A model generated the notes under the pieces. The model was not told the DNA's origin. It was given only the letters and a program-made list of their open reading frames with translations, and searched no databases. The translations under genes and the position numbers were made by a program. Below, piece after piece: positions 8,702 through 43,425 of a stretch of DNA of 47,077 bases. Within the stretch, counting starts at the first letter, position 1; the number at the start of each line of letters is the position of its first letter. Source of the stretch: a virus; IMG/VR virus record IMGVR_UViG_3300035459_000076, positions 1 through 47,077 of that record, one strand, 5' to 3'.

Positions 8702-8926
8702 ATGACAACGGGAACGAAGTTCTGGTTGGCGGTGGGCACGGTTGCTGCGTGCTTTGTGCTGGCAGCGGTGTACATCCTGAAGGTGACCACACCCGATGCG
8801 ACGGTACTGGGGGCGATTCTGGGGGTGATCACGCTGATCGTGGGCGGGTATTTCACGGCCAATGCGGTCATCACCAACAACGCGATTGCCAACACCACCC
8901 CGCCTGTGACCCCGCCGAAGGCATGA
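8702..8926 (+). CDS. holin-like protein, two membrane segments
   Basis: A 74-residue protein with helices at about 7-26 (WLAVGTVAACFVLAAVYIL) and 35-55 (LGAILGVITLIVGGYFTANA) and a short Pro/Thr-rich tail ending PPKA. This is the size and topology of class II holins, which make the inner-membrane hole that releases endolysin. AACGTGGAGGTGTAAG precedes ATG 8702. The stop codon overlaps the ATG of the next, spanin-like frame. Confidence 0.72.
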   Translation: MTTGTKFWLAVGTVAACFVLAAVYILKVTTPDATVLGAILGVITLIVGGYFTANAVITNNAIANTTPPVTPPKA

Positions 8927-9480: not shown

Positions 9481-9492
9481 GAGAGAAAGACA

Positions 9493-9810: not shown

Positions 9811-9813
9811 GCC

Positions 9814-10197: not shown

Positions 10198-10208
10198 AGG
10201 AGAGAGAC

Positions 10209-14505: not shown

Positions 14506-14514
14506 GGGTAGATA

Positions 14515-16864: not shown

Positions 16865-16867
16865 GGG

Positions 16868-17536
16868 ATGGGTGCAAATCCGATTTCGACAATCACCGGT
16901 CAGACCTCGGCGGGTCAGTACGGTTTCACTGATCCCTATGGGACGACATCGCAGCTCCAGAACGCCCTCTACGGTACGGGAGGAGCAGTCAGCGGTGGGC
17001 CGATGGGGACCTTCAACCAGAATATAGGAAACGTCGCAGGGCTCTCGGGGCCGCTTCAGCAGACCCTCACGGGGCTTGCAAACTATCAGGCAAACAATGC
17101 CCTCAACTCTGCTGGGTCGAACTTCGCCAACCAGGGCGCACTTGGCTCGGGCGCAGCAGCACAGGCGTTCGGTCAGGCCATTGCGAATCCTTTCGCGCAG
17201 GCACAGGCACAGTTGCAACAGGGCCAGCTTGGACTTGCAAACTCGCTCATGAGTGCAAGCGGGCAGGCATATGGCGCAGGACTTGGGGCGGGGTCAAATC
17301 TCATGGAGCATGCCTCAGGGCTTGTGGCACCGACGAACTACACCAACCCCGCCTACACGACGCAGCAGAACATGATGCAGGCGTTCCTCCAGCCGGGAGC
17401 AGCGCTTGGGAAAGGTCCCGGGGTGGGAAGCGGAAGCAACAGCAGTGCACTTCCATCATCGGGTGCCGCTACGGCAGGAAAGGGCGCAGGAAGCGGTGTG
17501 GCAAGCGATGTGGGCGCGGGACTTGCCCTGGCATAA
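16868..17536 (+). CDS. ejection/internal virion-like protein 1
   Basis: A 222-residue Ala/Gly/Gln/Asn-rich, low-complexity protein with amphipathic helices (AQAFGQAIANPFAQAQAQLQ) and a Gly/Ser/Ala tail. This composition is typical of the smallest of the three proteins that podoviruses inject ahead of their DNA. It is the first of three such genes in a row after the nozzle gene. Assignment is by composition and position only. Confidence 0.55.
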   Translation: MGANPISTITGQTSAGQYGFTDPYGTTSQLQNALYGTGGAVSGGPMGTFNQNIGNVAGLSGPLQQTLTGLANYQANNALNSAGSNFANQGALGSGAAAQAFGQAIANPFAQAQAQLQQGQLGLANSLMSASGQAYGAGLGAGSNLMEHASGLVAPTNYTNPAYTTQQNMMQAFLQPGAALGKGPGVGSGSNSSALPSSGAATAGKGAGSGVASDVGAGLALA

Positions 17537-17548
17537 GGAGAGTCGAAG

Positions 17549-19177: not shown

Positions 19178-19180
19178 GCC

Positions 19181-24698: not shown

Positions 24699-26190
24699 CT
24701 TCCATTCCTGCCGATCCCAGCCAGCGCTCGCCGCACCACTTGTAGACTTCCTTGCCGTCGCTTGACGGGTACTGACGGATTTCCTTTCCTTTCCATATCT
24801 CTACCTTTCCTTCCTCGCAGAGCATCGTGAGCCCCTCTTTCAACTCCGCAGCGTTGAACTTCCCCTGGCGAAGCAATCGCGTGCGGTCTATCTCTCCGCG
24901 CGTTCTCACATACTCCTCAAGCCTTCCGATGAAGGGCTTCACGTCGCTATTTTCGAAACCCCGCATGATGGGAAGTGCGTCAAACCATGTGCGCTTGACA
25001 AGCAAAATTGCATCCTTCACGTCTTGGATGTCAACGAGCTTGGGACCGTCTTCGTAGCGCTGAAGGCGTAGCAATAAAGCGATCTTAAGAATGAGAACGT
25101 GGATGCGCGAGCGAAGTCCCTGGAACTGCGTGTCGTTTTCAAGATCGTCCCACCACTTGCAATACCAGTGGTTGTAGTAGCGGTCGGCCTCGGGTGAAAG
25201 GTCGAACTCACCCACCGCGTGCTCCGCGATCCATGCAAGCCTTCGGGCAAGCTCTGCTTCCCGTGGAGCGTCTTCCACCACGCGGGGGCGCGAGAAACGG
25301 CGCTCGGGAGTGCGCGAGCAGTAGACCATCACAGAGCGTGAAAGGAAGCCGTCTGAGCGGACATTCTCAGCAAGTGAGCTTCGGAAGGCTGTTAGGGTTG
25401 TGCCCGCGATGAGCGTTGTGTGAAGGCTCTTCAGTTCGAGCTTCTTGCGCATGATGGTGCGGGTGGAAAAGCTCGATTCGCATTCGTAGAGTGCAAGAAG
25501 CAAGTCCGTGAGGCCGGTGTTGTAGCGCTGTTGGCCCGCAAATGTGGCGAACTCGTGGGCGACGATGGCGGTCTCGGAGGTCTTGCCGTACCACATGGGA
25601 CGGCCCGTGGCAGGGTTGATGATGGGCTTGCCGTCCTTGTCCTTGAACCAGAAGCCCTGCGTGCCAAGGGGCTTTTTGTACTTGGGTCTCATCGCTTCAA
25701 GGAGCGCTTCGGGTGTGACCTTGTCCGCCACGATGTTGATCGACTTCACGATCTTGAACTCGGGTGACTCAATGTGATCACCGAAGGTCTGAAGCAGCTC
25801 CATCGCATCGCGGATGGCCTCGGTCTTGTGGGCGATACCCGCAGGACCCACGAGGATGCAATAGAAGTTGGTATAGAGCTTTCGCTCCCCGAAGCGAAGC
25901 CACGCTTCGCGCTTGATCGCTGAGGAGAGGGCAAAAAGCGTTGACCACACGGTGAACAGCACCGAGACCTGCTTGCCGCGATGACGGTAGACGCAGTCGG
26001 TGAGAAAGCCTTTGCGCTTGGGAAGCACCTCATCCCCTGGGTCTGGTTTCCAGAACTTGTCCCGAGCCTTCGACTCGTCGTAGGGCTTGGGGGCGTGGAG
26101 ATCAGGCTTTGCGGGGGTGAGTGTTCCGTGACCGTTGTTTGAGTGATTTGGTTTTGCTTTGCTCTTCGAGCCACTTATCGAGGTCTTCAA
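24691..26190 (-). CDS. replicative helicase-like ATPase (DUF3987-like)
   Basis: A 499-residue protein. YCILVGPAGIAHKTEAI at about 109-125 is a Walker A-like loop with one extra residue (GxxGxxxKT). IVAHEFATFAG looks like Walker B, and a winged-helix-like C-terminus follows. This arrangement resembles DUF3987-type phage helicases found next to polymerases. The TTG start at 26190 overlaps the polymerase end by 89 bases. An in-frame GTG near residue 55 is an alternative start, so the first 50 Lys/Asn-rich residues are uncertain. Confidence 0.6.
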   Translation of the reverse strand: MKTSISGSKSKAKPNHSNNGHGTLTPAKPDLHAPKPYDESKARDKFWKPDPGDEVLPKRKGFLTDCVYRHRGKQVSVLFTVWSTLFALSSAIKREAWLRFGERKLYTNFYCILVGPAGIAHKTEAIRDAMELLQTFGDHIESPEFKIVKSINIVADKVTPEALLEAMRPKYKKPLGTQGFWFKDKDGKPIINPATGRPMWYGKTSETAIVAHEFATFAGQQRYNTGLTDLLLALYECESSFSTRTIMRKKLELKSLHTTLIAGTTLTAFRSSLAENVRSDGFLSRSVMVYCSRTPERRFSRPRVVEDAPREAELARRLAWIAEHAVGEFDLSPEADRYYNHWYCKWWDDLENDTQFQGLRSRIHVLILKIALLLRLQRYEDGPKLVDIQDVKDAILLVKRTWFDALPIMRGFENSDVKPFIGRLEEYVRTRGEIDRTRLLRQGKFNAAELKEGLTMLCEEGKVEIWKGKEIRQYPSSDGKEVYKWCGERWLGSAGMEDE

Positions 26191-26968
26191 GTTCCCCCCA
26201 GGATTTTTCTGACACGCTGATATCCGCTGGAAACACGATCTCCTTTCCCCAAAGGTGCCTTGGTTTTTCCATCGTGGCCTTCATCACGCGAGCGCACTCT
26301 TTCACATCGGCCACAGGACACTCTATCACATTGCTGTCGTGGACTGTTGCAACGAGCTTCCAGTCCTCGTGCTTCTCGCACTCGGCGTAGAGGTCGATCA
26401 GGGAAGCACTCTCAATATCAGCAGCTACCGATTGGATGCGAGTATTGATTCCTTCCCTCTCACACTCATCGGGAGTGCCTAAGAAAAAGCGCTTTCTTCC
26501 TGTAGCGGTTACGCATACTCTTGTGTCTCGCGCCGTTCGTGCTGCCTCTTCGAAGCCTTTTGCGAGTGCGGGATGGGCATCGAAGAACTTTCTGTCGGCG
26601 CTTCTGAACTGAGCCATAGTGAAGTTGACCTCAGGAACTTCTGCCGCCACACGCTCGAAGATGCCACGTACCCCCCCTCCATAAACGCGGCCAAAGACAA
26701 ATATCTTCGCAGCCCTTCGAATGGTCTTCCAATGTGGGTGGCTCTTTGTTATCCCAAACATGACTTTTGTGTTCGCATCATGGATGTTGATCCCCTTATC
26801 GAACATCTGTTGAAGCACGGGATCGTCAAAGTCGAAGGACATCACCCTGAGTTCCAAGTTGGAGAAGTCCCCCGCTACAAAGGCATGATCGTGCGCAGGC
26901 ACGAAAACTTTCTGAGCCTCAGCCGGTATGTTCTGAGCGTTTATGCTGCACCCCCAACATGCTTCCAC
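26102..26968 (-). CDS. DNA polymerase family A, C-terminal half (palm/fingers)
   Basis: A 288-residue frame with all three catalytic motifs: motif A DFSNLELR (D34), motif B RRAAKIFVFGRVYGGG (about 84-99), a QSVAADIESAS helix (about 179-189), and motif C TVHDSNVIE (H210-D211). It begins with the conserved INAQNIPAE segment that should follow TGRLSSGD in the upstream half. Translation may start at GTG 26968, within the end of the HNH gene, with no good ribosome site, so coupling is likely. The two halves probably act as one enzyme. Confidence 0.85.
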   Translation of the reverse strand: MEACWGCSINAQNIPAEAQKVFVPAHDHAFVAGDFSNLELRVMSFDFDDPVLQQMFDKGINIHDANTKVMFGITKSHPHWKTIRRAAKIFVFGRVYGGGVRGIFERVAAEVPEVNFTMAQFRSADRKFFDAHPALAKGFEEAARTARDTRVCVTATGRKRFFLGTPDECEREGINTRIQSVAADIESASLIDLYAECEKHEDWKLVATVHDSNVIECPVADVKECARVMKATMEKPRHLWGKEIVFPADISVSEKSWGELEDLDKWLEEQSKTKSLKQRSRNTHPRKA

Positions 26969-27390
26969 AGTCTACCGTTGCGAGCTTCGGAAATGGTTGC
27001 CTGACTCACCCCGAAGAGCTTCGCCAAGAAATTACCAGGGAGATCACTTTCGCGAAGGTTGACAACATCCATCTCCGTGAGCTTTGCATGACCATTTCTC
27101 GATCCCATTGGACCAAGGCCACGATCCCACATATCATGGAGATTCTTTTCGTTGGTCCCGATCTCAAGATGCGCAGGGTTTACACACAACTTGTTGTCAC
27201 ATTTGTGGCAAACAAACATCCCTTTGGGGATCGGCCCGAAAGCCTTCTTGTAGACCTCTCGATGTGCGTAGAGACGCTTGTTCTTTCTCCGCAGTTCTAC
27301 ATACCCGTTCTTACCGGGAAGGTGACTTGTGACTTCCCAGCACCCATTGTCTCTGACAGCCCATGCCAACTCTGTGTGCGTGCCTTTCAT
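26941..27390 (-). CDS. HNH endonuclease inserted in the DNA polymerase gene
   Basis: A 149-residue HNH_3-type nuclease: YAHREVYKKAFGPIPKGMFV then CHKCDNKLCVNPAHLEIGTN is the core (H, two CxxC-like pairs, NPxHL), and a C-terminal HTH (GNFLAKLFGVSQATISEARN) gives DNA binding. I choose ATG 27390 because AGGAG from the last polymerase codons is six bases upstream. The gene fills a 450-bp insert that cuts the polymerase at a conserved motif. Such nucleases home into allele copies lacking the insert. Confidence 0.88.
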   Translation of the reverse strand: MKGTHTELAWAVRDNGCWEVTSHLPGKNGYVELRRKNKRLYAHREVYKKAFGPIPKGMFVCHKCDNKLCVNPAHLEIGTNEKNLHDMWDRGLGPMGSRNGHAKLTEMDVVNLRESDLPGNFLAKLFGVSQATISEARNGRLWKHVGGAA

Positions 27391-27391
27391 T

Positions 27392-29215
27392 TTAATCTCC
27401 TGACGAAAGTCTTCCTGTACTGGTCCCATGTATTTTTAGAGATGGATGGATTCTCATATCCAGCCCTACTTCAAAATCAACGTAGGTGCTGAGGAGCTTT
27501 GCAATATGCTGGCGCTTCTGGAAAAGAGTCAGGGCATCGCGCAGTTTCCCAAGTTCGGCGAGCCTTTCCATGTGCTCTGCTGTAGGACGCCGGAAGCTCT
27601 CAAGGAGTGCAATCTCAGTGGTTGCGGCAAGCTTGGAGAGTAGAAGAGCTTTCTCGTCCTTCGCAAATCCCGTCTTTGTGCGCTTAGTTTTCGACTTCGA
27701 TCTGACAAGAGGAGTGACCTGAATGTAGAGCGCCACTTTCGAGAGCAGATCTTGGTACTTGAGCGATGCTTTCTTCTTTCGAGAACCTTCCTCGTCATAG
27801 CTTGCGATCTCCTTTTTCCACTTGTCGATGCTTCGCGGCAGCTCACCATAGAACCAATACGAAAGGTGATGCGGGCTTTGAAAGTTGAACTCCTCGGGCA
27901 AGCCGCCCAGTTCACGGAGTGCTTTCTCCGTAGCTGCCAGTTCGAGTGTGAGTTCCTTTTTCCACTTGTTCAGGCGCGCTCTGTCAAGCAGCATCCCGTT
28001 GTAGGTGATGGAGAGTGTGGGGCGGATGAGCTTCAGCGAGTAGTTGTAATAGATATGCTCAGTGCCAGTCTCTCGAAGATCCTGAAGTAAAGGTCCCAAT
28101 ACCTGGTGAAGCACGACGGCATCGCGCGCGTTGTACGTTCGAAGATCACTATCTGGCGTCTGCCGCATGACAGGAAAGCGTAGCTTGATATCTTTCCAGA
28201 ACGGCGTAGCACCATAAATGCTGACGATGTATCCCAGGTTATGCGGAAGTTCAGGATGAATTGCGTGGTGAATAAGCAAAACGTCGTGTGCAATGTTTCC
28301 GACCACGAACCCTTGATGGTCCAAGTGCGAGACATCGAAAGGAGCGTTCTGGTACATGGTAGGACAGCTTCGGAGGATATCTGCGAGACAGTTCTTAACG
28401 ACATTGAGGTCTCCATTTTTCCAGTACGGCAGAAAGCCTTGGCTGTAGAAAGGAATTGAGAAGGCTTCCTCACCTGAGAGCGCAAGGGCCATGACGAAGA
28501 TTTCGCTATTCCAGTAGTGAAGACCCGTGGTCTCGATGTCCACCCCAAGAAGCGGCTTCTTTCGAAGGAAGTCGCGAGTGCGCGCTTCGATGTCTTTCAC
28601 CGTGGGGAAGAGTAGGAAGTCTTCCTTTGGCGGCGTATAGCCATTCATGGCAATACCGACAGCTTTCTCCACATCGGCGATCATCGTCGGCTCTTCGCTC
28701 CACTGACCACGAATGATGTAGGACGGGTGAAAAGTGGGAACGGCCCAGAAGTTCAATCCCCCAACAGTAACCTCATAGACACTTCCCCGAACCTTGTGAA
28801 CAGAGCCTTCAATCCCCAGACGGCTTGTGGCGGCTGCGCCAAGTGGGACCAACGTTCGTACACCGAGGGAAGCAAGCTGTCGAATCTCCTCTTCAAAACC
28901 CGGCGCGCACGCGGTGAGAGCCTCTTGTCCTTCAGGAGAATCAAGATCATTTGCGGGTGGTCGGCAGTTAATGAGGTTAAGAAGGTACGCATTATGTCGA
29001 TGGATACCGGCCTTTGCCAATACTCGATCAAGTTCCTTGCCCGCCGAGCCGACGAAGGGATGGCCCGAGGCATCTTCCTCGGCCCCAGGCGCTTCACCGA
29101 TAAAGGCGATTTTTGGCGTTTCACTTGCGCTTTCTCCTCGCACTTTCGTGCAGTAGCCATCAAGCGGGCACTCTCGACACTTGGACTTTGTGCGGGTGAT
29201 CCGAAAGAGCTTCAT
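27392..29215 (-). CDS. uracil-DNA glycosylase (family 4) fused to polymerase A exonuclease/thumb half
   Basis: A 607-residue protein. Residues 1-170: family 4 UDG with iron-sulfur cysteines C13, C16, C84 and C103, motif GEAPGAEEDASGHPFVG (40-56) and HPS at 163-165. Residues 220-375: DnaQ-like 3'-5' exonuclease with D226xE228, N290xxF-D294 and Y361xxxD365. Residues 395-607: polymerase thumb up to IHGTSTGRLSSGD, where a stop follows at once. It would remove uracil and proofread, while catalysis needs the half at 26102-26968. ATG 29215 follows the previous stop by two bases. Confidence 0.85.
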   Translation of the reverse strand: MKLFRITRTKSKCRECPLDGYCTKVRGESASETPKIAFIGEAPGAEEDASGHPFVGSAGKELDRVLAKAGIHRHNAYLLNLINCRPPANDLDSPEGQEALTACAPGFEEEIRQLASLGVRTLVPLGAAATSRLGIEGSVHKVRGSVYEVTVGGLNFWAVPTFHPSYIIRGQWSEEPTMIADVEKAVGIAMNGYTPPKEDFLLFPTVKDIEARTRDFLRKKPLLGVDIETTGLHYWNSEIFVMALALSGEEAFSIPFYSQGFLPYWKNGDLNVVKNCLADILRSCPTMYQNAPFDVSHLDHQGFVVGNIAHDVLLIHHAIHPELPHNLGYIVSIYGATPFWKDIKLRFPVMRQTPDSDLRTYNARDAVVLHQVLGPLLQDLRETGTEHIYYNYSLKLIRPTLSITYNGMLLDRARLNKWKKELTLELAATEKALRELGGLPEEFNFQSPHHLSYWFYGELPRSIDKWKKEIASYDEEGSRKKKASLKYQDLLSKVALYIQVTPLVRSKSKTKRTKTGFAKDEKALLLSKLAATTEIALLESFRRPTAEHMERLAELGKLRDALTLFQKRQHIAKLLSTYVDFEVGLDMRIHPSLKIHGTSTGRLSSGD

Positions 29216-31046: not shown

Positions 31047-31360
31047 CACGCCTTTGCCTCCTTCGGGGATGGCTCGACGGCTTTATCCACACGACCATGA
31101 CAAATCGGGTTACTCGCATGTAGTTGGTAGTGATGCTCTTTAGTCGGTTTCTCTGACCACATAGCACCGCAATCCCAGCACACCCACGTCTGCGCGAGCT
31201 TGGGGGGCTCGCTGGAGGCGGGAGACATCCCGGCAAGGCGCTTGACTTCGGCGCTCAGGTCTACGAGAGCCGTATACAAGTCCTCCTCCATGCCGGAGTA
31301 GTCCCAAAGGATTTTTCCGAGCCCTTCGATCGCTTTGACAACCGCTTCGTGCTCGCTCAT
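31046..31360 (-). CDS. internal gene: helical plus zinc-ribbon protein (104 aa)
   Basis: ATG 31360 has GGGAGGAG five bases upstream, so this part is probably also made on its own. Residues 1-45 are helical (AIEGLGKILWDYSGMEEDLY) and residues 59-88 hold CWDCGAMW...HHYQLHASNPICHG, a zinc-ribbon-like pattern. It is in the same frame as the XF1762-like gene and overlaps by ATGA the stop of a 39-residue frame, which points to a separate gene in an ancestral arrangement. Confidence 0.58.
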   Translation of the reverse strand: MSEHEAVVKAIEGLGKILWDYSGMEEDLYTALVDLSAEVKRLAGMSPASSEPPKLAQTWVCWDCGAMWSEKPTKEHHYQLHASNPICHGRVDKAVEPSPKEAKA

Positions 31361-31870
31361 TGCTTCTCCTCCCGCGTCTGCTCGCCCGCGCCCTTGGCAT
31401 AAAGGGGACATGTGGGAGCGTGCCCGGCGAACGGCCATCCCGGGGCGCAGTTGCATCGAGGCTCGCCCGCGCTCACGGCCGCGCGTTGGCGAGTTCCACG
31501 AATTGCGATGGTGGAGCTCCGCGACCACGCGGTACCCCGCGCCCCGAAGGGATGCTCCCGATTCCGTCCCGAGTGTGAACGTCAACAGCTTGCACCCTCC
31601 CATGGCCTGCCAGATTCGACGGCAGGCTCCATACAGATAACTGTTGGTGTTTCGAGGTGCCGTGGGCGTCACGCAGACGCGGAGTATCTCCGCGTCGTTG
31701 TACTGGTCCTGCTTCCGCGCCACCGGGCGCCCTACGATTGCAACCCCCACAAGTTCCTGGCCTTCATAGGCCGCAATGGAAAAACGATGACCGACCACGG
31801 GCCGATTGTGCCGGTGATAGCGAGCAACGATTTCGTTTGCCTGTGCCAACGTCACCGGCTTGTGCGTCAT
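31046..31870 (-). CDS. XF1762-family GNAT-like acyltransferase, running on in frame into the next gene
   Basis: Residues 1-132 match the XF1762-type N-acyltransferase-like family: FSIAAYEGQELVGVAIVGRP, then EILRVCVTPTAPRNTNSYLY, LLTFTLGTESGASLRGAGY and WNSPTRGR. Family members usually end about there. This frame has no stop and continues for another 140 residues, the last 104 of which look like a separate gene with its own ribosome site (31360). So either a natural fusion or a lost stop. The substrate is unknown. XF1762-like proteins are often phage-borne. Confidence 0.68.
   Translation of the reverse strand: MTHKPVTLAQANEIVARYHRHNRPVVGHRFSIAAYEGQELVGVAIVGRPVARKQDQYNDAEILRVCVTPTAPRNTNSYLYGACRRIWQAMGGCKLLTFTLGTESGASLRGAGYRVVAELHHRNSWNSPTRGRERGRASMQLRPGMAVRRARSHMSPLCQGRGRADAGGEAMSEHEAVVKAIEGLGKILWDYSGMEEDLYTALVDLSAEVKRLAGMSPASSEPPKLAQTWVCWDCGAMWSEKPTKEHHYQLHASNPICHGRVDKAVEPSPKEAKA
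31357..31476 (-). CDS. 39-aa Cys/His peptide in an alternative frame
   Basis: From GTG 31476 the frame reads MSAGEPRCNCAPGWPFAGHA and then PTCPLY, ending EEKQ. The C-C...H...C spacing resembles small zinc-binding phage peptides. Its TGA overlaps ATG 31360 of the next gene, a sign of translational coupling. It lies entirely inside the XF1762-like reading frame and has no visible ribosome site, so it is tentative. Confidence 0.35.
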   Translation of the reverse strand: MSAGEPRCNCAPGWPFAGHAPTCPLYAKGAGEQTREEKQ

Positions 31871-33250: not shown

Positions 33251-33444
33251 CCTTGTTCCTTCCATGCTTTGATTCGCTTTCCTTCGGCGATTGCCTTATG
33301 CACTACGCGTGAGTGGCCTTTCACGCTTCGAATCACTTTTCGACCCTCATACCACCGTCGGATGGAAGAAGAGTCTTCAGACTTAGGCCCCGGGCGCACG
33401 ATGTGAAGCCTCATGAGTACCCGCAGAATTGCCATCAGGATCAT
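33247..33444 (-). CDS. small basic early protein (65 aa)
   Basis: From ATG 33444, which overlaps the radical SAM stop (ATGA). Arg/Lys-rich: ILRVLMRLHIVRPGP, then RRWYEGRKVIRSVKGHSR. Later in-frame ATGs at 33435 and 33414 are also possible starts. The charge suggests nucleic-acid contact. No family recognised. Confidence 0.52.
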   Translation of the reverse strand: MILMAILRVLMRLHIVRPGPKSEDSSSIRRWYEGRKVIRSVKGHSRVVHKAIAEGKRIKAWKEQG

Positions 33445-34325
33445 TTCCACGTGATGCCTTCCCAGCTCTTCGTGAGACTGTAGAACTGCTGGTAGTGATC
33501 GGAGTGGAAGTAGATCGGAATGTCGGGACCGTGGCGAAAGCCGAGGGTGCCCTTCATGCCGCAGTCCACGATTGCAAGAGAGCAGTTGGTACAGCACCCC
33601 CGCTCTCGTGAGCGCTCCATGATGACCGACAAGGGCTCTTTCAGAACGTTCCCAAGGACATAGAGCTTTCTGTCTGGGACGCGCTCGCACAGAAGTACAT
33701 CCCCGTCCCAGGTGATCGTGGGGACGCGGTCGCGTATGCAGTGACAGCGCTCACCGAGTGCGGGAGAGCCATGGGCATAGTCACTCCACTTGGCCCGCAG
33801 GACCACATCCACTCCGACTTCAAGGAGCCAGTGGCGCAGGAACAGCTCAAACTCAAGCTCGCTTTGGCCATTCTGGACCATCCGCACACCGATGAACGCG
33901 CCATTGGCGCGATGCACAAGACATGAGCGCACGAAGGCTTCCACCTTGGCGAGTGAGATGTTGCCGCGATGGGAGGCCTGGGTGTCATCGCACACCCCGT
34001 CGACACTCACGAGCACCGAGTAGACGGGACTTTCCTTGGAAAGCATCTCGGGAATGAAGCGCGATGTATAGCCGCTGAGAGGAAGGCCCACGCGAAGGCC
34101 CTTGGATTTCCAGCGGCTAAGAAGCTCGGGGAACTTCGGATGGAGCATCGGCTCTCCGTGAAGGGCCGCGCAGATCATCGTCCCCGGGTCGATCTCGGTG
34201 AGTGATGCCTCGAAGACCTCATCGCTCATGTCGCCTTCGGTGACGTCCATGAGGGTGCGAAAACACCCTTGGCATCCTGCGTAGCATCGGGAGGTGATCT
34301 CCTGAATGACATAGGACACTTTCAT
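33441..34325 (-). CDS. radical SAM enzyme with SPASM-like C-terminus
   Basis: A 294-residue protein. C14xxxC18xxC21 (RCYAGCQGC) is the radical SAM iron-sulfur site that binds S-adenosylmethionine. MLHPKFPELL is the expected strand-helix unit. About residues 190-260 hold CHCIRD, TWDGDVLLC, LGNV and CCTNC, the cysteine pattern of SPASM/twitch domains, which bind extra clusters and often modify peptides. No substrate peptide gene is obvious nearby. Start coupled by ATGA to the 59-residue gene upstream. Unusual cargo for a phage. Confidence 0.82.
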   Translation of the reverse strand: MKVSYVIQEITSRCYAGCQGCFRTLMDVTEGDMSDEVFEASLTEIDPGTMICAALHGEPMLHPKFPELLSRWKSKGLRVGLPLSGYTSRFIPEMLSKESPVYSVLVSVDGVCDDTQASHRGNISLAKVEAFVRSCLVHRANGAFIGVRMVQNGQSELEFELFLRHWLLEVGVDVVLRAKWSDYAHGSPALGERCHCIRDRVPTITWDGDVLLCERVPDRKLYVLGNVLKEPLSVIMERSRERGCCTNCSLAIVDCGMKGTLGFRHGPDIPIYFHSDHYQQFYSLTKSWEGITWK

Positions 34326-37999: not shown

Positions 38000-38015
38000 G
38001 AGGGTTTCCTTTCCT

Positions 38016-38180
38016 TCAGGGTTTGTGCAAGACCTTTTCGGCTGCACGAGCGACGATGATAAGTGAGTTGACCGCGAGGTGCAGGTCATGGGTTTCCCAC
38101 TTCAACTCGACCTGGTGAGCGGCGTCGATGAGTTTCGCAAGGGATAGCTCAAGAGAGCGCACACGTGAGCTTTGAGGCAT
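38016..38180 (-). CDS. 54-aa early protein
   Basis: From ATG 38180, eleven bases after AAAGGAG, which itself overlaps the end of the previous gene. Helical throughout (LELSLAKLIDAAHQVELKWE, then VNSLIIVARAAEKVL). The long in-frame upstream extension is a shadow of the gene at 38185-38454. Function unknown. Confidence 0.55.
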   Translation of the reverse strand: MPQSSRVRSLELSLAKLIDAAHQVELKWETHDLHLAVNSLIIVARAAEKVLHKP

Positions 38181-38184
38181 AGGA

Positions 38185-38454
38185 CTATGCACTCCTTTGT
38201 GAGAGAGATCGAAGCTTTGCGAGAACATGATAGCCTCGACGGGTGAAATGCTCTCCGTGGAAGAGACGGAAGTCACGGAGGAGCACCTGGATATCAGCCT
38301 TGTAGCCGACAAGAACGATACTGTTGTCTTCGGGGCCTTCGATTGCGAGGACTCCTGCGCGGTCAAGCCGCGCGATAGCCTCGGCGGGAGAGGTCGAGCG
38401 CAGGTGGGCGATGAGTGAGTGGCGATCGGTGAGGCGATAGACGGAGGTAGTCAT
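38185..38454 (-). CDS. 89-aa early protein
   Basis: ATG 38454 overlaps the stop of the preceding gene (ATGA). An alpha/beta mix: SPAEAIARLDRAGVLAIEGP, then NSIVLVGYKADIQVLLRDFR. No metal or membrane motif. Small early phage proteins of this sort are often host-takeover factors, but nothing in the sequence shows it. Confidence 0.58.
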   Translation of the reverse strand: MTTSVYRLTDRHSLIAHLRSTSPAEAIARLDRAGVLAIEGPEDNSIVLVGYKADIQVLLRDFRLFHGEHFTRRGYHVLAKLRSLSQRSA

Positions 38455-38918
38455 TTGTGCGCCGCCTTTCCGAGTATGCGCTCGATTGCTTTGGGCTGGC
38501 CTCCGTCGCGACCGTTGACGTAACAAAGGCTTGCATCAAAGCGTGAGGAAAGCCCGTAGAAAGCGTTTCTGTGCTTTCGATCCTCGTTGATGGTGCCTGC
38601 TTTCGGTTTGTAGCGATACTCATAGGGCAAGGATTCGACAAACGGTCGATGGTCGTCACAGAGGTCTTCGTGAGTCCATATGGTCTTGCCACAGGGTTCG
38701 ACACGGCCGTTTTGCCATACTTCGTACACGCAATGCTGGGGCTCGCGGGCGAGAAACAACCCGCTATTGAGGCTTAAGAGTTCCTCAATCATGGCATCGC
38801 GTCTTTTGTTTCGGCTTGACGGCCACGGCTCGCAATCGAGATAAAGGGATTCGACGATGCCTGAAAAGCGATTGCGATAGTGATTGCAACAATGTTTGTG
38901 AACGTACCAGCTACGCAT
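38451..38918 (-). CDS. 155-aa early protein with zinc-finger-like cluster
   Basis: Two adjacent ATGs (38921, 38918). GGGAGG is better spaced for 38918. HKHCCNHYRNRF near the start and CVYEVWQNGRVEPCGKTIW followed by EDLCDDHR in the middle give a C..C...C..H set that could bind zinc. The C-terminus carries RNAFYGLSSRF. Coupled on both sides in the early operon. Family not recognised. Confidence 0.6.
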   Translation of the reverse strand: MRSWYVHKHCCNHYRNRFSGIVESLYLDCEPWPSSRNKRRDAMIEELLSLNSGLFLAREPQHCVYEVWQNGRVEPCGKTIWTHEDLCDDHRPFVESLPYEYRYKPKAGTINEDRKHRNAFYGLSSRFDASLCYVNGRDGGQPKAIERILGKAAHK

Positions 38919-39139
38919 CATTTCCTCCCATCACCGGGAAGGTCTGAGCGATGACCAGGGCGTTGCGTGGTCATGGTGTTGATGTAGCGTGCGGCCTCGC
39001 GCTCGAAGGCGGGAAGGCAGTCGTGGCAATAGCCCGAGGAATATTCGCCTGGGGCGATACGACGGCCCGCGAGCTTCGAACGGTAGACTGCGCCGCAACC
39101 AAGACAACGGGAAATCAAGACGGAATCGGCAGTTGTCAT
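38918..39139 (-). CDS. zinc-ribbon early protein (73 aa)
   Basis: CLGCGAVYR and, 25 residues on, GYCHDCLPAFEREAARY make a clear two-knuckle zinc ribbon of the kind common in small phage proteins. The start is coupled by ATGA to the upstream membrane-protein gene, and the stop overlaps the next start. Confidence 0.65.
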   Translation of the reverse strand: MTTADSVLISRCLGCGAVYRSKLAGRRIAPGEYSSGYCHDCLPAFEREAARYINTMTTQRPGHRSDLPGDGRK

Positions 39140-39387
39140 TTGTAACCGCGCCTTTCGTTGACTTCGCGAAGCGTGGGGGAGTCGTCCAGTGAACGGCTGT
39201 CAAACATATCCGCATGTGGCAACGGGTCGCGGCGCATGGCGTGGAGGAAACGGCGGAAGTGAAGCCAGTGGTAGAGCTGGCGAAAAGCCTCGATTGCAAG
39301 GGCGGCGAGGAAGACAGCGCCGCAAAGCATGGCAAGTGCGACGATGCAACCGAGTAAAGCGTGAGCGATCCAAAGAAAGACTTGCAT
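39136..39387 (-). CDS. small early membrane protein (83 aa)
   Basis: One long hydrophobic segment at residues 3-33 (FLWIAHALLGCIVALAMLCG, then AVFLAALAIEAF) followed by a basic cytoplasmic tail (RRFLHAMRRDPLPHADMF). Leader AAACGGAGGTTCCATC before ATG 39387 belongs to the repeated early-gene leader type. An inner-membrane host-interaction role is possible. Confidence 0.62.
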   Translation of the reverse strand: MQVFLWIAHALLGCIVALAMLCGAVFLAALAIEAFRQLYHWLHFRRFLHAMRRDPLPHADMFDSRSLDDSPTLREVNERRGYK

Positions 39388-39401
39388 GATGGAACCTCCG
39401 T

Positions 39402-39773
39402 TTAGAAGACGTTCAGCTTCCCTTTGAAGCTGATATAGAACGTGTTACGCACGTTTAGAAAAGCATAGAGCATAGGTTGTAGGGAGATGTTTGATATGAC
39501 GGGGTGGTCGCACTCATGACGATAGCCGAGTTCGAAACCACCGAGGCGAAGACCGGCGGAGAAGGTATAGAGGGCTTGGAAGGGTGCAAAGCTTGCGAGA
39601 CTTTGGGCGGTTTCCCAAGTTTCGACACCCGAGGAGAGAAAGAGATGGTTATCGAAGGCTTGAAGCTCGACGGAAAGGACGGTGGAGAAGCTTTCCAGCG
39701 GAGTGGAGAGCAGAGCGCTTTGATAGCTGACGGTGCCAAAGGAGAGAGTATAGAGAAGTGTAAGCCATTGCAT
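39402..39773 (-). CDS. predicted exported beta-rich early protein (123 aa)
   Basis: The N-terminus MQWLTLLYTLSFGTVSYQSA is a plausible signal peptide. The rest alternates short beta strands (TFSAGLRLGGFELGYRHECD, then NTFYISFKGKLNVF), as in small outer-membrane barrels or periplasmic proteins, and ends in Phe. GGAGG lies eight bases before ATG 39773. An early exported protein might act in superinfection exclusion. This is inference only. Confidence 0.55.
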   Translation of the reverse strand: MQWLTLLYTLSFGTVSYQSALLSTPLESFSTVLSVELQAFDNHLFLSSGVETWETAQSLASFAPFQALYTFSAGLRLGGFELGYRHECDHPVISNISLQPMLYAFLNVRNTFYISFKGKLNVF

Positions 39774-39789
39774 GTGTGATACCTCCGAA

Positions 39790-39836
39790 AGCGCCGCGCC
39801 GGAGTTGAACCGGCGCGAGTCGACGGGACCGGCGCT
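39790..39836 (-). promoter_or_regulatory. intergenic hairpin resembling a tRNA acceptor/T-arm minihelix
   Basis: Minus strand: AGCGCC, 13-base spacer, CGCGCCGG-TTCAACT-CCGGCGCG (39817-39795), then GGCGCT. The inner stem is a perfect eight pairs with a seven-base TTCAACT loop, identical in form to a tRNA T-loop, and AGCGCC can pair with GGCGCT. No D or anticodon arm exists. It lies directly after the stop of the 67-residue gene and before the next ribosome site. Confidence 0.5.
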
Positions 39837-40038
39837 AAAACGTTCCGATCTCTTCCTCCCACGTGCGGATCATTCCTACGGGCTCCGTTTCCACATAATA
39901 GACCGGTGTGTGAGAATCGGTCATTATTCCACCATCGCGGCTCTTTATGACGGAACCGTGCTTGCCCGATCTGCGGAGGGAGGCGGCTGTAATCATCGCA
40001 TCCTCCCGATCTATGAACTTGAATTGCTCGTTTGCCAT
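39835..40038 (-). CDS. 67-aa early protein
   Basis: GAGGAGGAATGAGAG precedes ATG 40038. Sequence MANEQFKFIDREDAMITAAS, then KHGSVIKSRDGGIM, with a charged end (RTWEEEIGTF). No motif recognised. It is flanked by strong hairpins on both sides (39790-39836, 40070-40107). Confidence 0.6.
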   Translation of the reverse strand: MANEQFKFIDREDAMITAASLRRSGKHGSVIKSRDGGIMTDSHTPVYYVETEPVGMIRTWEEEIGTF

Positions 40039-40069
40039 CTCTCATTCCTCCTCGCGGTTTAAGCCGCTA

Positions 40070-40107
40070 TAGCACGCACGGCGTGAGATTGAAGCCGTCG
40101 CGTGCTA
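40070..40107 (-). promoter_or_regulatory. long intergenic hairpin after an early gene
   Basis: TAGCACGC 40070-40077 pairs with GCGTGCTA 40100-40107, and ACGGC 40078-40082 with GCCGT 40094-40098, leaving one bulged base and an 11-base loop. That is thirteen base pairs in all, located three bases after the stop of the 63-residue gene. No U-run follows, so mRNA stabilisation or processing is more likely than termination. Confidence 0.5.
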
Positions 40108-40110
40108 ACG

Positions 40111-40302
40111 TTACAGATCGCTCGCGGGAAGACCGCATGCGGCCCAGAAACGGGCGCGATCAAAGGCGCTGTTGTCTTCCTTGAGAATGGACATAAGGGC
40201 GCGGGTGAAGGTGGGGACGCGCAGGAGAAGGTCAGTACCGTGGCCAGGAAGAGTGTTGTCTTTGATGCACACGGCGAGCTTGATGTAATCCTTTTTCGAC
40301 AT
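40111..40302 (-). CDS. 63-aa early protein
   Basis: Leader TAACGGAGGTTATCAATC directly before ATG 40302. Begins MSKKDYIKLAVCIKDNTLPG and ends DNSAFDRARFWAACGLP, a pattern (MSKKDY...FDRARFLAACG) I recall from small early proteins in many phages of diverse hosts. Function unknown. Confidence 0.7.
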   Translation of the reverse strand: MSKKDYIKLAVCIKDNTLPGHGTDLLLRVPTFTRALMSILKEDNSAFDRARFWAACGLPASDL

Positions 40303-40317
40303 GATTGATAACCTCCG

Positions 40318-40527
40318 TTAGTAGTTTCGGGAGAGAAGCTTTTCATACATTGCGCGGCTTCCCTCAGAGTCACAGACTTGATTCAAGGACGGCTTGAATC
40401 CCTTTATGCCGATGAGAGAAAGCAACCGGTAAGCTCGACTTGACTGGCCGGTGTGATGGTCGCGGCCGTAGCAGTAGCAGCCGACGTAAACGTCGAAGCG
40501 CTTTTCGATGTATTCCTGTTCACTCAT
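40318..40527 (-). CDS. 69-aa early protein
   Basis: ATG 40527 follows ATACGGAGGTTATC. Sequence MSEQEYIEKRFDVYVGCYCY, then GRDHHTGQSSRAYRLLSLIG. It lies immediately downstream of the hammerhead ribozyme, so its mRNA would get a new 5' end about 63 bases before the start codon. Function unknown. Confidence 0.62.
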   Translation of the reverse strand: MSEQEYIEKRFDVYVGCYCYGRDHHTGQSSRAYRLLSLIGIKGFKPSLNQVCDSEGSRAMYEKLLSRNY

Positions 40528-40561
40528 GATAACCTCCGTATGGGCGCGTGGTGGGGCGCCC

Positions 40562-40626
40562 GGTCTCATCAGAGGACGTAACACGTCCTGACGGCAAGAG
40601 GGCGGGGGGCTCTTGCCGTTTCGACC
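40562..40626 (-). ncRNA. type II hammerhead ribozyme
   Basis: Read on the minus strand: GGTC (stem II), GAAA, CGGCAAGAG-loop-CTCTTGCCG (stem III, 9 perfect pairs), TC, AGGACGT-GTT-ACGTCCT (stem I, 7 perfect pairs), CTGATGA, GACC (stem II). Every core element is canonical: CUGAUGA, GAAA, the GUC cleavage triplet, A15.1-U16.1, C15.2-G16.2 and G10.1-C11.1. Stem II is open, which defines type II. Cleavage is predicted between 40590 and 40589. It begins the base after the TAA of the 103-residue gene. Confidence 0.93.
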
Positions 40627-40938
40627 TTACATGCTGTCGCGGGCGAAGACTTCGACGGTCGCCGTGTTGTTTTCGATGACGATGCCCCAAAGGGAATCGG
40701 TTTCGGTCCACGGTAAGGGCTCTTTGCATGTACAGGTGGAGCAATGGGGCTTTCGCTCGAAAACGATGATACCAAGGGCAACCCATTTGCCGGATTCAAG
40801 GTTTGCGGTTTCTTCATCCTCGGCCGCTTTGGTTTCCTCTTCCGTGTTGAGAGCGTAGCTTCCGCGCGTCTGGTAGTCTTCATCGTAGACCGCGCGATAG
40901 CGCTTGTTGTTTGCCTCCCATTTGTGGTAGGTGATCAT
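40627..40938 (-). CDS. 103-aa early protein
   Basis: ATG 40938, with GGAAGGAAGG upstream. Tyr/Arg-rich start (YHKWEANNKRYRAVYDEDYQ), then an acidic helix, a HCSTCTC cysteine cluster, and a beta end (IVIENNTATVEVFARDSM). Its stop codon touches the hammerhead ribozyme, which would leave a stem III hairpin at the 3' end of its mRNA. Function unknown. Confidence 0.62.
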   Translation of the reverse strand: MITYHKWEANNKRYRAVYDEDYQTRGSYALNTEEETKAAEDEETANLESGKWVALGIIVFERKPHCSTCTCKEPLPWTETDSLWGIVIENNTATVEVFARDSM

Positions 40939-40943
40939 GGTGT

Positions 40944-41114
40944 TTACCTTCCTTCCTTTCGGATCGAGACGATTTGAACGAGAGCGTTTGTAATGCATTC
41001 GTGATAACACTTGCCGATTGGCGCTGGGGAGCGAGTGACGCGATCGGTGATGGTGAGACCACGGAGAGCGCCGGTGAGAAAGCGCTTTTTTACTGTGAGA
41101 GTGTGTGTAGTCAT
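40944..41114 (-). CDS. 56-aa basic early protein
   Basis: ATG 41114 overlaps the TGA of the acidic frame upstream (ATGA). Basic and Thr-rich: MTTHTLTVKKRFLTGALRGL, then TRSPAPIGKCYHECITNALV. The in-frame upstream extension is a shadow of the preceding gene. Function unknown. Confidence 0.55.
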   Translation of the reverse strand: MTTHTLTVKKRFLTGALRGLTITDRVTRSPAPIGKCYHECITNALVQIVSIRKEGR

Positions 41115-41220
41115 TCGTCGTTTTCCCCTTCCTCTTCTGATTCCTGCTTTAGACGGATGCGCCTTCAAACTTGCCCGGGTGAGAAACGATGTCTTGGTAG
41201 TCTGCTCTTGTCTTTTCCAT
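41111..41220 (-). pseudogene. short early gene with apparent -1 frameshift
   Basis: ATG 41220 has the leader TAACGGAGGGTCACT. The frame reads MEKTRADYQDIVSHPGKFEG and stops after 23 residues (TAA at 41149-41151). In the -1 frame a Glu-rich run (IRLKQESEEEGENDE) follows and ends in a TGA that overlaps the next gene's ATG, as coupled early genes here do. Either a single-base change broke the gene or ribosomes shift. HPGKFEG recalls a family of small phage proteins that is normally longer. Confidence 0.5.
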
Positions 41221-41241
41221 AGTGACCCTCCGTTAATGGAA

Positions 41242-41270
41242 AGTATTGCACGGATAGACGATTGTGTCAA
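41242..41270 (-). promoter_or_regulatory. early leftward promoter
   Basis: Minus strand: consensus -35 TTGACA (41270-41265), 17-base spacer, -10 AATACT (41247-41242, four of six matches). Transcription would start just before the leader of the gene at 41220. It is the best intergenic sigma-70-type promoter for the chain of small early genes. Confidence 0.65.
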
Positions 41271-41309
41271 GTAAAATGTTGGGGAAATGAAGAGAAAAGA
41301 GAAAGTATT

Positions 41310-41543
41310 TCACTTAACGTTTGTGTACTTGGAGCGAGTGCGGAGATCGACGATCCAATAGAAGCCAAGAGGAGAGAGATCGAGATCGATGGTGTTCTCG
41401 CGGATACAACGGATGGCAAGGGTAGTAAGATAGGACTGTAAGCTGGCGTATGCGGTGCCGTATGCGTAGGGCGGATCACGGTTGATTTCCCAATAAAGCT
41501 TGTAGCGAGCGTGCGGATCGGGTGACCAGAGGAAGTGGGTCAC
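41310..41543 (-). CDS. 77-aa protein paired with the ribbon-helix-helix gene
   Basis: GTG 41543 overlaps the stop of the upstream ribbon-helix-helix gene (GTGA). Trp/Tyr-rich: HFLWSPDPHARYKLYWEINR, then SLQSYLTTLAIRCIRENTID, ending in LRTRSKYTNVK. A TTG further upstream lies within the partner gene and lacks a ribosome site. The two-gene unit looks like a regulator pair or toxin-antitoxin pair, but this protein matches no toxin I recognise. Confidence 0.55.
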   Translation of the reverse strand: MTHFLWSPDPHARYKLYWEINRDPPYAYGTAYASLQSYLTTLAIRCIRENTIDLDLSPLGFYWIVDLRTRSKYTNVK

Positions 41544-41716
41544 TGTTCGCCCCAAGTGTTCATGAGACGAGTTTTCTGGAGAGAACAATTGAGGAGATAG
41601 GAATTGATAAGGCGCTGATAGGGAATACCCAGGTCTTGGGAGAGAGATTTGAAGTAAGTGAGGATGCGGGAATCAAGGCGGAGAGTGACGGGTTTGTAAG
41701 TGAGTTTTGGTTTCAT
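41540..41716 (-). CDS. ribbon-helix-helix DNA-binding protein (58 aa)
   Basis: MKPKLTYKPVTLRLDSRILT then YFKSLSQDLGIPYQRLINSY fits the BrnA/CopG-type fold: a short strand VTLRLD, helix, turn at LGIPY, second helix. Such proteins bind tandem or palindromic DNA as dimers. It is the first minus-strand gene of the early arm. Its -10 box ends only six bases before ATG 41716, so the mRNA should be leaderless, and a palindrome covers its -35. Autorepression is likely. Confidence 0.75.
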   Translation of the reverse strand: MKPKLTYKPVTLRLDSRILTYFKSLSQDLGIPYQRLINSYLLNCSLQKTRLMNTWGEQ

Positions 41717-41722
41717 GGGAAG

Positions 41723-41763
41723 AGTGTAAAGAAAAAAGCATAAGAAGTCAACAGAATTGTTGA
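41723..41763 (-). promoter_or_regulatory. leaderless promoter and palindromic operator of the RHH gene
   Basis: Minus strand: -35 TTGACT (41751-41746), exact 17-base spacer, -10 TACACT (41728-41723), then CTTCCC and the ATG, so +1 falls on or next to the start codon. The perfect inverted repeat TCAACA-GAAT-TGTTGA (41748-41763) overlaps the -35, the expected place for a repressor site. There is no ribosome site before the ATG. Confidence 0.68.
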
Positions 41764-41847
41764 TGTTTTCTCCGTCGTTATGGCCCCTTTCTCGCGTGTT
41801 TTAGAATCGTACAGGTTGTTATGGGGAAAGTAATTAAGTCTGTTTTT

Positions 41848-41888
41848 AGGGTATGCGTTCGCGAATTCTCCCCCAGCATACCCTTTTT
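41848..41888 (+). terminator. rightward terminator-like hairpin in the control region
   Basis: AGGGTATGC 41848-41856 pairs perfectly with GCATACCCT 41876-41884 around a 19-base loop (which contains the palindrome TTCGCGAA), and TTTT follows on the plus strand. No plus-strand gene precedes it within 17 kb on the early side, so it may end a short control RNA or insulate the divergent arms. The stretch 41764-41847 shows nothing else I can name. Confidence 0.5.
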
Positions 41889-41907
41889 GGGGTGGGGATA
41901 GACCGTT

Positions 41908-41953
41908 CAATCAGTTTCAATCATGAGCGATCAGGAGCAATCATGAATGATTG
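41908..41953. repeat. iteron-like array, 10-bp period
   Basis: CAATCA at 41908, 41918 and 41938, CGATCA at 41928, and the inverted form TGATTG at 41948: five hexamers spaced exactly ten bases apart, one helical turn, so all face the same side of the DNA. Iterons like this mark replication origins or cooperative operators. It sits in the intergenic control region between the divergent early and late arms. Confidence 0.7.
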
Positions 41954-42067
41954 AATCACTTTTCCTTTCGACCACTCCATACAAGAGAAAGGGAGAATGC
42001 AATATCATGTGTTTCTTCTATTTCTTTGTAATATATAGAGATAATAAGAGAATAAGAGAGGAGAAAA

Positions 42068-42364
42068 ATGAAGAGAAAGGTAGGAGAAAGACGAAACGGT
42101 CACACTGAGCGTCTCTTGGGTATGTTTTCGTGCCAAGTGGAAAACTCAAACGCTTGTTCGACGACGATGCGCGCTGCCGCGTCGCACCCATGCATTCGTG
42201 AGCGCACCCTCGCGTCAACCGCGTGGGCATCGCGCATAACGCCACGACGAAAGAGGAGTGAGAGAGCGCCACAAAGCCAATATGGGAAATGCCATCTCGC
42301 GCCGCGGGGTATGCCTTCCACACAATTTTTGAGGTCCCCTATTGTAAATGTGAAACTAATGTGA
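42068..42364 (+). CDS. doubtful 98-aa ORF in the control region
   Basis: ATG 42068 has a strong ribosome site (GAGAGGAG, four bases), and GATAAT at 42040-42045 could be a -10. The protein, however, is Arg/Ser/Thr-rich, lacks hydrophobic pattern and looks random (for example TMRAAASHPCIRERTLASTA). It may be a short real peptide, a leader or nothing. Minus-strand frames over the same DNA are no better. Listed because of the ribosome site. Confidence 0.3.
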   Translation: MKRKVGERRNGHTERLLGMFSCQVENSNACSTTMRAAASHPCIRERTLASTAWASRITPRRKRSERAPQSQYGKCHLAPRGMPSTQFLRSPIVNVKLM

Positions 42365-42370
42365 TACGTT
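42342..42370 (+). promoter_or_regulatory. putative leaderless promoter of the endonuclease VII-like gene
   Basis: TTGTAA (42342-42347), 17-base spacer, TGA-TACGTT (extended -10 with hexamer 42365-42370), then six bases and ATG 42377, with no ribosome site between. The geometry is the same as for the RHH gene on the other strand. The -10 match is modest. Confidence 0.42.
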
Positions 42371-42376
42371 CAGCAC

Positions 42377-42994
42377 ATGGAAGACTTCACCTGCTCCATT
42401 TGTGGATCACATGAGCACACGGACTTCGCGGGACCCAAAGGAACTACCATCAGCTTGTGTCGTACTTGCGCTCAAGCCCCAAAGAAGAAGAAAGAGAAAA
42501 CACAGCGAACTTGCCCAATATGCAAAGAAAGAGGTCACTACAGCAGTTTTCACAATGATGGCCCATGTAAGAAGTGTGGAGCAAATGAGTTCAAGTTCTA
42601 CGATGATGCTTTCGGAAGGCACAGGAGATGTCTTTCATGCATGAGAATAGACTCAGCAAACAAGAGAAAGCTTTACAGAATGGAGCATCCTGCAAGAGTA
42701 AAAATGAGCGTAGAAGAACGGATGCAAAGAAGCAGAGAGAGAAGTAGAGTTCGAAGCAAAAAGAAAAGAGAATACAAGTTGAAACTTTTGTCAAACGGAA
42801 AGCCACTCAAGTGTGCTATTTGCGGGAAGCCCCTTAAATGGGGAAACTCTCATGTGGATCACGATCACAAGACAGGAAAATTGCGTGGAGTACTGTGCAT
42901 GGCATGTAATTACGGAATAGGTTGCTTCAAGGATTCAGAAGCCATCTTGAGATCGGCAATAAAGTATCTGAAAGTACAACAAGTTGACGCTTGA
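42377..42994 (+). CDS. recombination endonuclease VII-like HNH protein with extra zinc knuckles
   Basis: A 205-residue protein. Residues about 140-195 (CAICGKPLKWGNSHVDHDHK, then GKLRGVLCMACNYGIG) are the endonuclease VII fold: two cysteine pairs flanking HVDHDH. Upstream are further zinc pairs (CSICGSHEH...CRTC; CPICKERGHYSS...CKKCG; CLSC), more than the family normally has. It may be a homing enzyme or a junction resolvase. Codons are A/T-rich compared with the terminase region, a hint of transfer. No ribosome site precedes the ATG. Confidence 0.85.
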   Translation: MEDFTCSICGSHEHTDFAGPKGTTISLCRTCAQAPKKKKEKTQRTCPICKERGHYSSFHNDGPCKKCGANEFKFYDDAFGRHRRCLSCMRIDSANKRKLYRMEHPARVKMSVEERMQRSRERSRVRSKKKREYKLKLLSNGKPLKCAICGKPLKWGNSHVDHDHKTGKLRGVLCMACNYGIGCFKDSEAILRSAIKYLKVQQVDA

Positions 42995-43051
42995 CATCTC
43001 TCATCTCTTCACCTTACTCTTCTTCACGTTGGAATCACGTGAGGCCCCCAA

Positions 43052-43267
43052 GTGCGCCTTCTCTTTCGCCCCGCATGTTCATGCAAGCTCTCACCCCAGG
43101 ACTTGCCGCGTCCATCGCTTCGCGTTCTTGAGGGCTTCGATACCGACGACGAATCCCCACAAGTGAAAGTCTCCGTCGATCTTCTCTGTCCTCACTGCGC
43201 CACGCCATGGGAGTCCTTCGCCGGTCTTGCATACCTGCCCAAAAAGCCCTCGGTGATCACCCCATGA
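43052..43267 (+). CDS. 71-aa Cys-containing protein
   Basis: From GTG 43052 the frame reads MRLLFRPACSCKLSPQDLPR, then VKVSVDLLCPHCATPWESFA, with a CPHC knuckle and G/C-ending codons typical of real genes here. Its TGA overlaps the next ATG at 43264. The ribosome site is weak (GTGAGG). Probably a small zinc-binding packaging-operon protein. The 57 bases before it hold nothing recognisable. Confidence 0.5.
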   Translation: MRLLFRPACSCKLSPQDLPRPSLRVLEGFDTDDESPQVKVSVDLLCPHCATPWESFAGLAYLPKKPSVITP

Positions 43268-43425
43268 AGCCCCGCCGAAATCCCGAAGCCTTCTGGCAGT
43301 TCTTCACCCGCGACGGCAAGCCCATCGCTTCCTTCCCGCCGCGCTTTCATGTCAATCCCTACAACTTCTCTCTCCTGATGAATGCCCACCTCTATGCGTG
43401 GAAGCTTCCCTACGCGAGGAACTGA
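43264..43425 (+). CDS. 53-aa aromatic-rich protein
   Basis: ATG 43264 is coupled to the stop before it (ATGA). MKPRRNPEAFWQFFTRDGKP, then FPPRFHVNPYNFSLLMNAHL. Rich in Phe, Tyr and Pro, no membrane helix. The next gene starts two bases after its stop. Function unknown. Confidence 0.55.
   Translation: MKPRRNPEAFWQFFTRDGKPIASFPPRFHVNPYNFSLLMNAHLYAWKLPYARN

Follow-up and report, generated by a model that had tools for sequence, protein, structure and literature searches.

The tailed-phage DNA in the IMG/VR record IMGVR_UViG_3300035459_000076 (positions 1 to 47,077, the whole stretch analysed, called the window here) carries a type II hammerhead ribozyme with a perfect core on its minus strand, at 40562 to 40626. 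The element lies between two small genes, and its study leads to a large and uniform phage subtype of the type II hammerhead that is mostly missed by the current Rfam model. This compact subtype has a sharp position rule that involves a stop codon, the ribozyme and a ribosome site, and there is a concrete structural reason for the rule, namely an A that is common to the stop codon and the ribozyme. Judging from sequence, we estimate a probability of about 0.85 that the window element is an active, self-cleaving member of this subtype, splitting a two-gene message.

Read from 40626 down to 40562, the minus strand gives GGTC, GAA, stem III (ACGGCAAGAG, loop CCCCCCGCC, CTCTTGCCGT), C, stem I (AGGACGT, loop GTT, ACGTCCT), CTGATGA and GACC. 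All core bases are present, in the arrangement that defines a hammerhead (CUGAUGA ... GAAA ... UH around a three-stem junction). A first-pass annotation, made from the sequence alone, had placed all of these core parts in this order on this strand, and they are found where it put them. Stems I and III are closed by loops and stem II, of 4 base pairs (bp), is open, which is the circular permutation of type II. The A15.1-U16.1 pair is A40619 with T40591, C17 is C40590 and the cleavage triplet is GUC. The sequence thus agrees with the annotated triplet, open stem II and 7-bp stem I, and the new 5' end that had been predicted at 40589 fits the position of C17; stem III, given as 9 bp, is actually 10 bp long when A15.1-U16.1 is counted. 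In stem I, which is 17 nucleotides (nt) long, six standard pairs are followed by U1.7 closing a 3-nt loop, as in the compact subtype. When the element is folded alone, the three-way junction is its minimum-free-energy structure (z -2.4).

A chance origin of the element is ruled out. A strict descriptor (stem II of at least 4 bp, stems I and III of at least 6 bp) has no match in 1,500 first-order Markov-random 47-kb sequences of the window's length. Viral contigs were scanned with a pattern that fixed only GGTCGAAAC, GTC and CTGATGAGACC; at least 119 stretches match it, and a version of the pattern with a scrambled core matches none. The family loci described here are among the matches listed. 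Though the pattern left both stems free, stem I is 6–7 bp and stem III mostly 6–10 bp in the matching loci. In an alignment of 40 viral copies (A1), 99% of the pair cells hold standard pairs (70% in shuffles) and 165 are double-change cells (46 in shuffles), with strong covariation of stems I and III in the family. A covariance model built from these 40 copies (R1), with the window copy excluded, gives the window copy a score of 54 bits (E 1.7e-14). The type II identity proposed in the first-pass annotation is thereby supported by independent covariation evidence. The annotation had named a covariance-model search as one check: R1 detects the element, whereas no Rfam 15 model, that of type II included, has a match in the window at its gathering score, the only Rfam hit being a partial one to Hammerhead_3 at 15–16 bits. 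R1 has no further match in the window or in its seven nearest relatives, and descriptor scans of the window exclude a second hammerhead or a copy with a relaxed core.

The layout of the family is very regular. Stem I is 17 nt long in 158 of 185 copies from the matching loci, stem II has 4 bp, and the 3-nt loop of stem I is closed by U1.7 and mostly G. Of the 135 distinct viral copies whose stem I is 17 nt long, 134 have an A directly ahead of stem II, as do 42 of 42 copies taken from bacterial genome assemblies; assembly hits belong to Gastranaerophilales, Synergistales, Hyphomicrobiales, Burkholderia and others. This A is kept outside stop codons as well (87/88 viral and 33/33 genome copies), although the base upstream of it varies there. 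Conservation of U1.7 is similar, at 133/135 viral and 42/42 genome copies; G or U stands opposite it in 130 of the 135, and an A directly follows stem II in 84%. The window copy obeys the rule for the base before stem II with A40627. It departs from the subtype twice, with A opposite U1.7, where G or U is common, and with G in the place of the A that usually follows stem II, but both departures are found in a minority of family copies (A at position 2.7 in about 4%), and the usual bases at these two places are common rather than defining.

The two conserved bases have counterparts in known structures. In the crystal structures of the sTRSV and Schistosoma hammerheads, the sole contact common to both natural classes is an A-U Hoogsteen pair, with the A coming from stem-loop II (the final tetraloop A in the viral class) and the U lying beside residue 1.6 in stem I (PMC2553840). 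The conserved A and U1.7 correspond to the partners of this contact, as the base before stem II in type II is the loop II position before 11.4. From this we infer that the compact subtype, including the window copy, would keep the A-U1.7 contact, with loop II opened at that point.

The position of the ribozymes relative to genes is equally regular. In 70% of the 157 distinct viral copies, no more than 10 nt separate the ribozyme start from the stop of an open reading frame (ORF) of at least 60 amino acids (aa), and in 89% a Shine-Dalgarno sequence and a start codon follow within 60 nt; random positions give 5% and 17%, respectively. The ORFs in these counts are mechanical, not curated gene calls, and the one annotated case, in Burkholderia phage Bcep176, agrees with them. 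Start offsets from the stop cluster at -1, 0 and 2, with TAG at -1 and TAA or TGA at 0. The upstream stop codon contains the conserved A in 47 of 135 viral copies; this codon is either TAG, with its G as the first base of stem II, or an abutting TAA or TGA. In the window the arrangement is the same: a stop codon precedes the ribozyme and a ribosome site follows it, all on one strand. The one-base gap after the TAA in the first-pass annotation does not exist, as the ribozyme adjoins the TAA (40629-40627) with zero spacer (offset 0), and the final A of this stop codon is very probably part of the ribozyme. We have not seen the A shared by stop and ribozyme, or the stop-codon register, described before, and these are the new part of the finding. 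Altogether there are 141 copies in 50 phage records, with a maximum of 11 in one phage, and in two cassettes that were read closely (L190 and L191) most gene junctions consist of stop, ribozyme, ribosome site and start. The probable role of the family is to divide messages of several genes into pieces with one gene each.

Some further observations concern the family copies. In the two cassettes (L190, G012 13800-19800; L191, G023 38000-43400), a hammerhead separates most of the small genes. Copies within one phage have the first bases of stem III in common (ACACC, ACCAC), which suggests that they were duplicated within the phage and then drifted with compensating changes. Directly after 25 of 148 distinct viral copies, nearly always at position 0, stands ATCAG, the complement of CTGAT in the core; examples are L083 324-380, L047 2602-2653 and L109 1319-1370, and the window copy is without it. 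Such a tail could fold back over the core as a hairpin once the RNA is cut, or could hold the ribozyme off.

The closest relative that has been assayed is the hammerhead of Bcep176 (Perreault et al. 2011), which is active in vitro (PMC7151607). Like the window copy, it has an A before GGUC, GAAAC, GUC, a 17-nt stem I, U1.7 and a UNNNG loop, and it lies directly behind a small gene, 2 nt past the annotated TAA of gp32. R1 finds it at 44.7 bits. It differs in its core, where it has C6 (CUGCUGA) in place of the consensus CUGAUGA of the window and prefers Mn2+, in stem III, and in the A after stem II, which is G in the window. On its layout the compact subtype is therefore not wholly new, since Bcep176 shares it. 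The Rfam family RF02276 (Hammerhead_II, pseudoknotted) has the same permutation and core as the window element, but in its model stem I is longer, and the loop of stem I is paired to the 3' tail. No match to RF02276 is reported for the window, and with a 3-nt loop and the tail GGGCGC there is no room for such a pseudoknot. Type II hammerheads are said usually to have a pseudoknot between loop I and the tail (PMC3088659; PMC6155905), but it is not obligatory, as about 40% of hammerheads were judged to use one (PMC3088659). At its gathering score the Rfam type II model recovers 5 elements in ten loci where the descriptor finds about 40, which leaves the compact subtype under-annotated.

Type II hammerheads between phage genes have been known since 2011. 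Perreault et al. (2011) described clustered hammerheads that flank single genes in prophages and suggested that they process long phage RNAs; arrays of them cleaved in vitro, and one also in E. coli (PMC3088659). A ribozyme at a stop between phage genes, which the first-pass annotation took to be new, had thus been proposed in outline. The clusters of that study in Agrobacterium, Azorhizobium and Clostridium scindens contain several copies per locus where the window has one (PMC3088659). No mention of stop codons or translation was found in the paper, and a literature search, which covered subscription literature only in part, found no account of a link to the stop codon. What hammerheads do in bacteria and phages is described as an open question (PMC6155905, PMC7151607). 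With the position rule and the shared A, the idea of RNA processing, so far vague, becomes simply testable, and this includes cleavage that is gated by translation termination. The subtype is, in addition, a source of short natural insulators with which operons can be split in laboratory strains.

The coordinates of the ribozyme parts and of its surroundings are collected in Table 1. Translation agrees with the annotated 103 residues of the upstream gene, and the hairpin before the GGAGG of the next gene is present as annotated. Neither flanking protein has a match in PHROGs or Pfam, or a relative in viral contigs by 8-mer seeds, a limited search, and cultured phages show no DNA similarity to the ribozyme region. 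The upstream gene forms the promoter-proximal part of a leftward block, and calling it an early gene is plausible; promoter matches are near the shuffle background.

Table 1. Ribozyme parts and neighbouring features in the window
Feature	Position	Strand	Basis
Upstream gene, no family recognised, 103 aa; TAA 40629-40627	40627..40938	minus	translation
Last A of TAA; equivalent to final loop II A, predicted Hoogsteen partner of U1.7	40627	minus	family conservation, PMC2553840
Type II hammerhead ribozyme, whole element	40562..40626	minus	sequence; R1 model; descriptor scan
Stem II 3' strand GGTC, pairs with 40562-40565	40623..40626	minus	sequence, fold, R1
Core GAA (G12 A13 A14), conserved	40620..40622	minus	sequence, R1
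Stem III, 10 bp, A15.1..U16.1, loop CCCCCCGCC	40591..40619	minus	sequence, fold, R1
C17, predicted cleavage 3' of C17; new 5'-OH end 40589	40590	minus	conserved-core position
Stem I AGGACGT-GTT-ACGTCCT, 17 nt, 7 bp, loop GTT	40573..40589	minus	sequence, fold
U1.7 (T40583), conserved, predicted partner of stop-codon A	40583	minus	T in 133/135 viral copies
Core CTGATGA, conserved	40566..40572	minus	sequence, R1
Stem II 5' strand GACC	40562..40565	minus	sequence, R1
Hairpin GGGCGC-CCCACCAC-GCGCCC, 6 bp, between ribozyme and ribosome site	40542..40561	minus	sequence, fold
Shine-Dalgarno GGAGG of downstream gene	40533..40537	minus	sequence
Downstream gene, 69 aa, ATG at 40527, no recognisable family	40318..40527	minus	translation

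The window is recognised as a tailed phage by its portal, terminase, split DNA polymerase and Mom-like protein. Its seven nearest relatives (L121-L127) have terminases 72–80% identical to that of the window and have flanking blocks in common with it, and the region from 38.5 to 41.5 kb is almost unmatched in them, with one 32% match, in L127. The ribozyme and both genes lie in a hypervariable block, and no syntenic copy turned up in phages with related terminases. One of these relatives, L125, has a Twister-P5 ribozyme in its corresponding variable block (5800-5861, minus strand, 47 bits at an Rfam cut-off of 37.6). Like the window element it is self-cleaving by class and follows a stop codon closely, here 1 nt past the TAA of a 160-aa ORF, but it belongs to another ribozyme class and has no sequence in common with the hammerhead. 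In a hammerhead phage locus (L189, G031 7600-10800), two twister-P1-like elements flank three hammerheads on the same strand, with 44–45 bits, which is below the Rfam cut-off. The occurrence of different ribozyme classes in one place suggests that what is useful is the cleavage as such. Twisters are not found in most hammerhead phages (one weak P5 match in 50, one P1 match in 48). In L121 and L122, a search for known ribozymes gave only sub-threshold matches to unrelated families. Pistol ribozymes had no match in hammerhead phages, but that search gave none anywhere and so shows little.

After hammerhead cleavage, the upstream half ends in a 2',3'-cyclic phosphate and the downstream half begins with a 5'-OH. 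In the window, the ribozyme would be transcribed leftward together with both small genes. Once RNA polymerase has passed 40562, pairing of GACC with GGTC would close the three-way junction, and docking of the stop-codon A (40627) on U1.7 (40583) would align stems I and II; the RNA would then cut itself 3' of C40590. The message of gene 1 would end about 40 nt further on, closed by the stem III hairpin and carrying the cyclic phosphate, and that of gene 2 would begin with a short leader that starts with the stem I hairpin and a 5'-OH. A cut between the genes that leaves a hairpin at each end, as the first-pass annotation foresaw, follows from the anatomy and matches the arrangement that recurs in the family. 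The likely use would be to turn a multi-gene early transcript into messages that are separately stable and separately translated.

Several observations weigh against an active ribozyme that splits the message. With A at position 2.7, U1.7 may sit in an ordinary U-A pair, and stem II is followed by G, not by the common A. When the element is folded in a long sequence context, stem II is not predicted. The freed core can pair unusually well with the downstream start region (-8.7 kcal/mol), and this might misfold the ribozyme. The gene pair and the ribozyme are both absent from all seven nearest relatives. The weak prediction of stem II was rejected as a sign of inactivity because most of the family behaves alike: in most copies folded with 70 nt of flanking sequence, stem II is likewise not favoured thermodynamically. 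The pairing with the start region could instead act as a switch after cleavage, in which the freed CUGAUGAGACC would cover the Shine-Dalgarno and start of gene 2 at GGUUAUCAUGAG and lower its translation. The window duplex exceeds those of all 130 family copies (strongest -8.3 kcal/mol), and in the context from the stop to gene 2 the alternative fold is 2.2 kcal/mol below the hammerhead fold. As a family mechanism this is rejected, since start regions behind hammerheads show lower complementarity to the core than other starts do (p 2e-12), that is, the family avoids the pairing. Such a switch is quite improbable in the window, and the pairing is possibly a weakness of this copy or a private switch, not a family rule. 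A hitch-hiking or degrading copy without benefit, recently acquired from a kind that spread among phage gene junctions, would fit the absence from relatives with such similar terminases, the location among unmatched small genes in a hypervariable block, the missing 3' A and the A at 2.7. We consider this improbable, as the core and all three stems are perfect, the stems of the family covary strongly and the corresponding block of a relative has a ribozyme of another class at a stop codon.

A refinement of the proposed self-cleavage between the two genes is that it could be gated by termination. Here the stop codon would supply the docking A, and a ribosome terminating on it would cover GGTC-GAAA, so that translation of gene 1 would hold off cleavage. 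The cut would come when the end of gene 1 is free of ribosomes, and cleavage would thus report on translation or be coupled to it. The conserved A inside the stop in 47/135 viral copies, the clustering of offsets at -1, 0 and 2, the window TAA at offset 0 and the twister 1 nt past a stop in a relative are all in keeping with this. However, tight packing behind stops could be plain genome economy, and the A is kept also outside stops, so the overlap may be mere convenience. We regard the gating as possible but doubtful. The same doubt applies to its wider form, in which the stop codon might be a working part of the ribozyme, termination and cleavage might be mutually exclusive, the operon might be cut as the translation of each gene ends, and hammerhead and twister might be exchanged in this role. 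Hammerheads elsewhere also act in RNA circles or retrozyme-like elements, where ribozymes release a unit that is then circularised (PMC6155905). For the window this is very far-fetched, as no unit can be excised with a single copy, and spliced or circular products from phage arrays were sought and none found (Perreault et al. 2011, PMC3088659).

Some other genes of the window's phage deserve mention. At 26105-29215 (minus strand), the DNA polymerase is encoded in two ORFs that join exactly at position 979 of the PHROG profile, with an ORF for an HNH_3 endonuclease (26941-27429) between them. The split is an intron or endonuclease insertion, and no group I intron was found there at the Rfam cut-off. 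A Mom-like DNA modification protein (31049-31870, minus strand; PHROG 1384, 1e-31) indicates that the phage may modify its own DNA. Near the recombination genes, an ORF at 33441-34325 (minus strand) has matches to Radical SAM, below the Pfam cut-off, and to SPASM.
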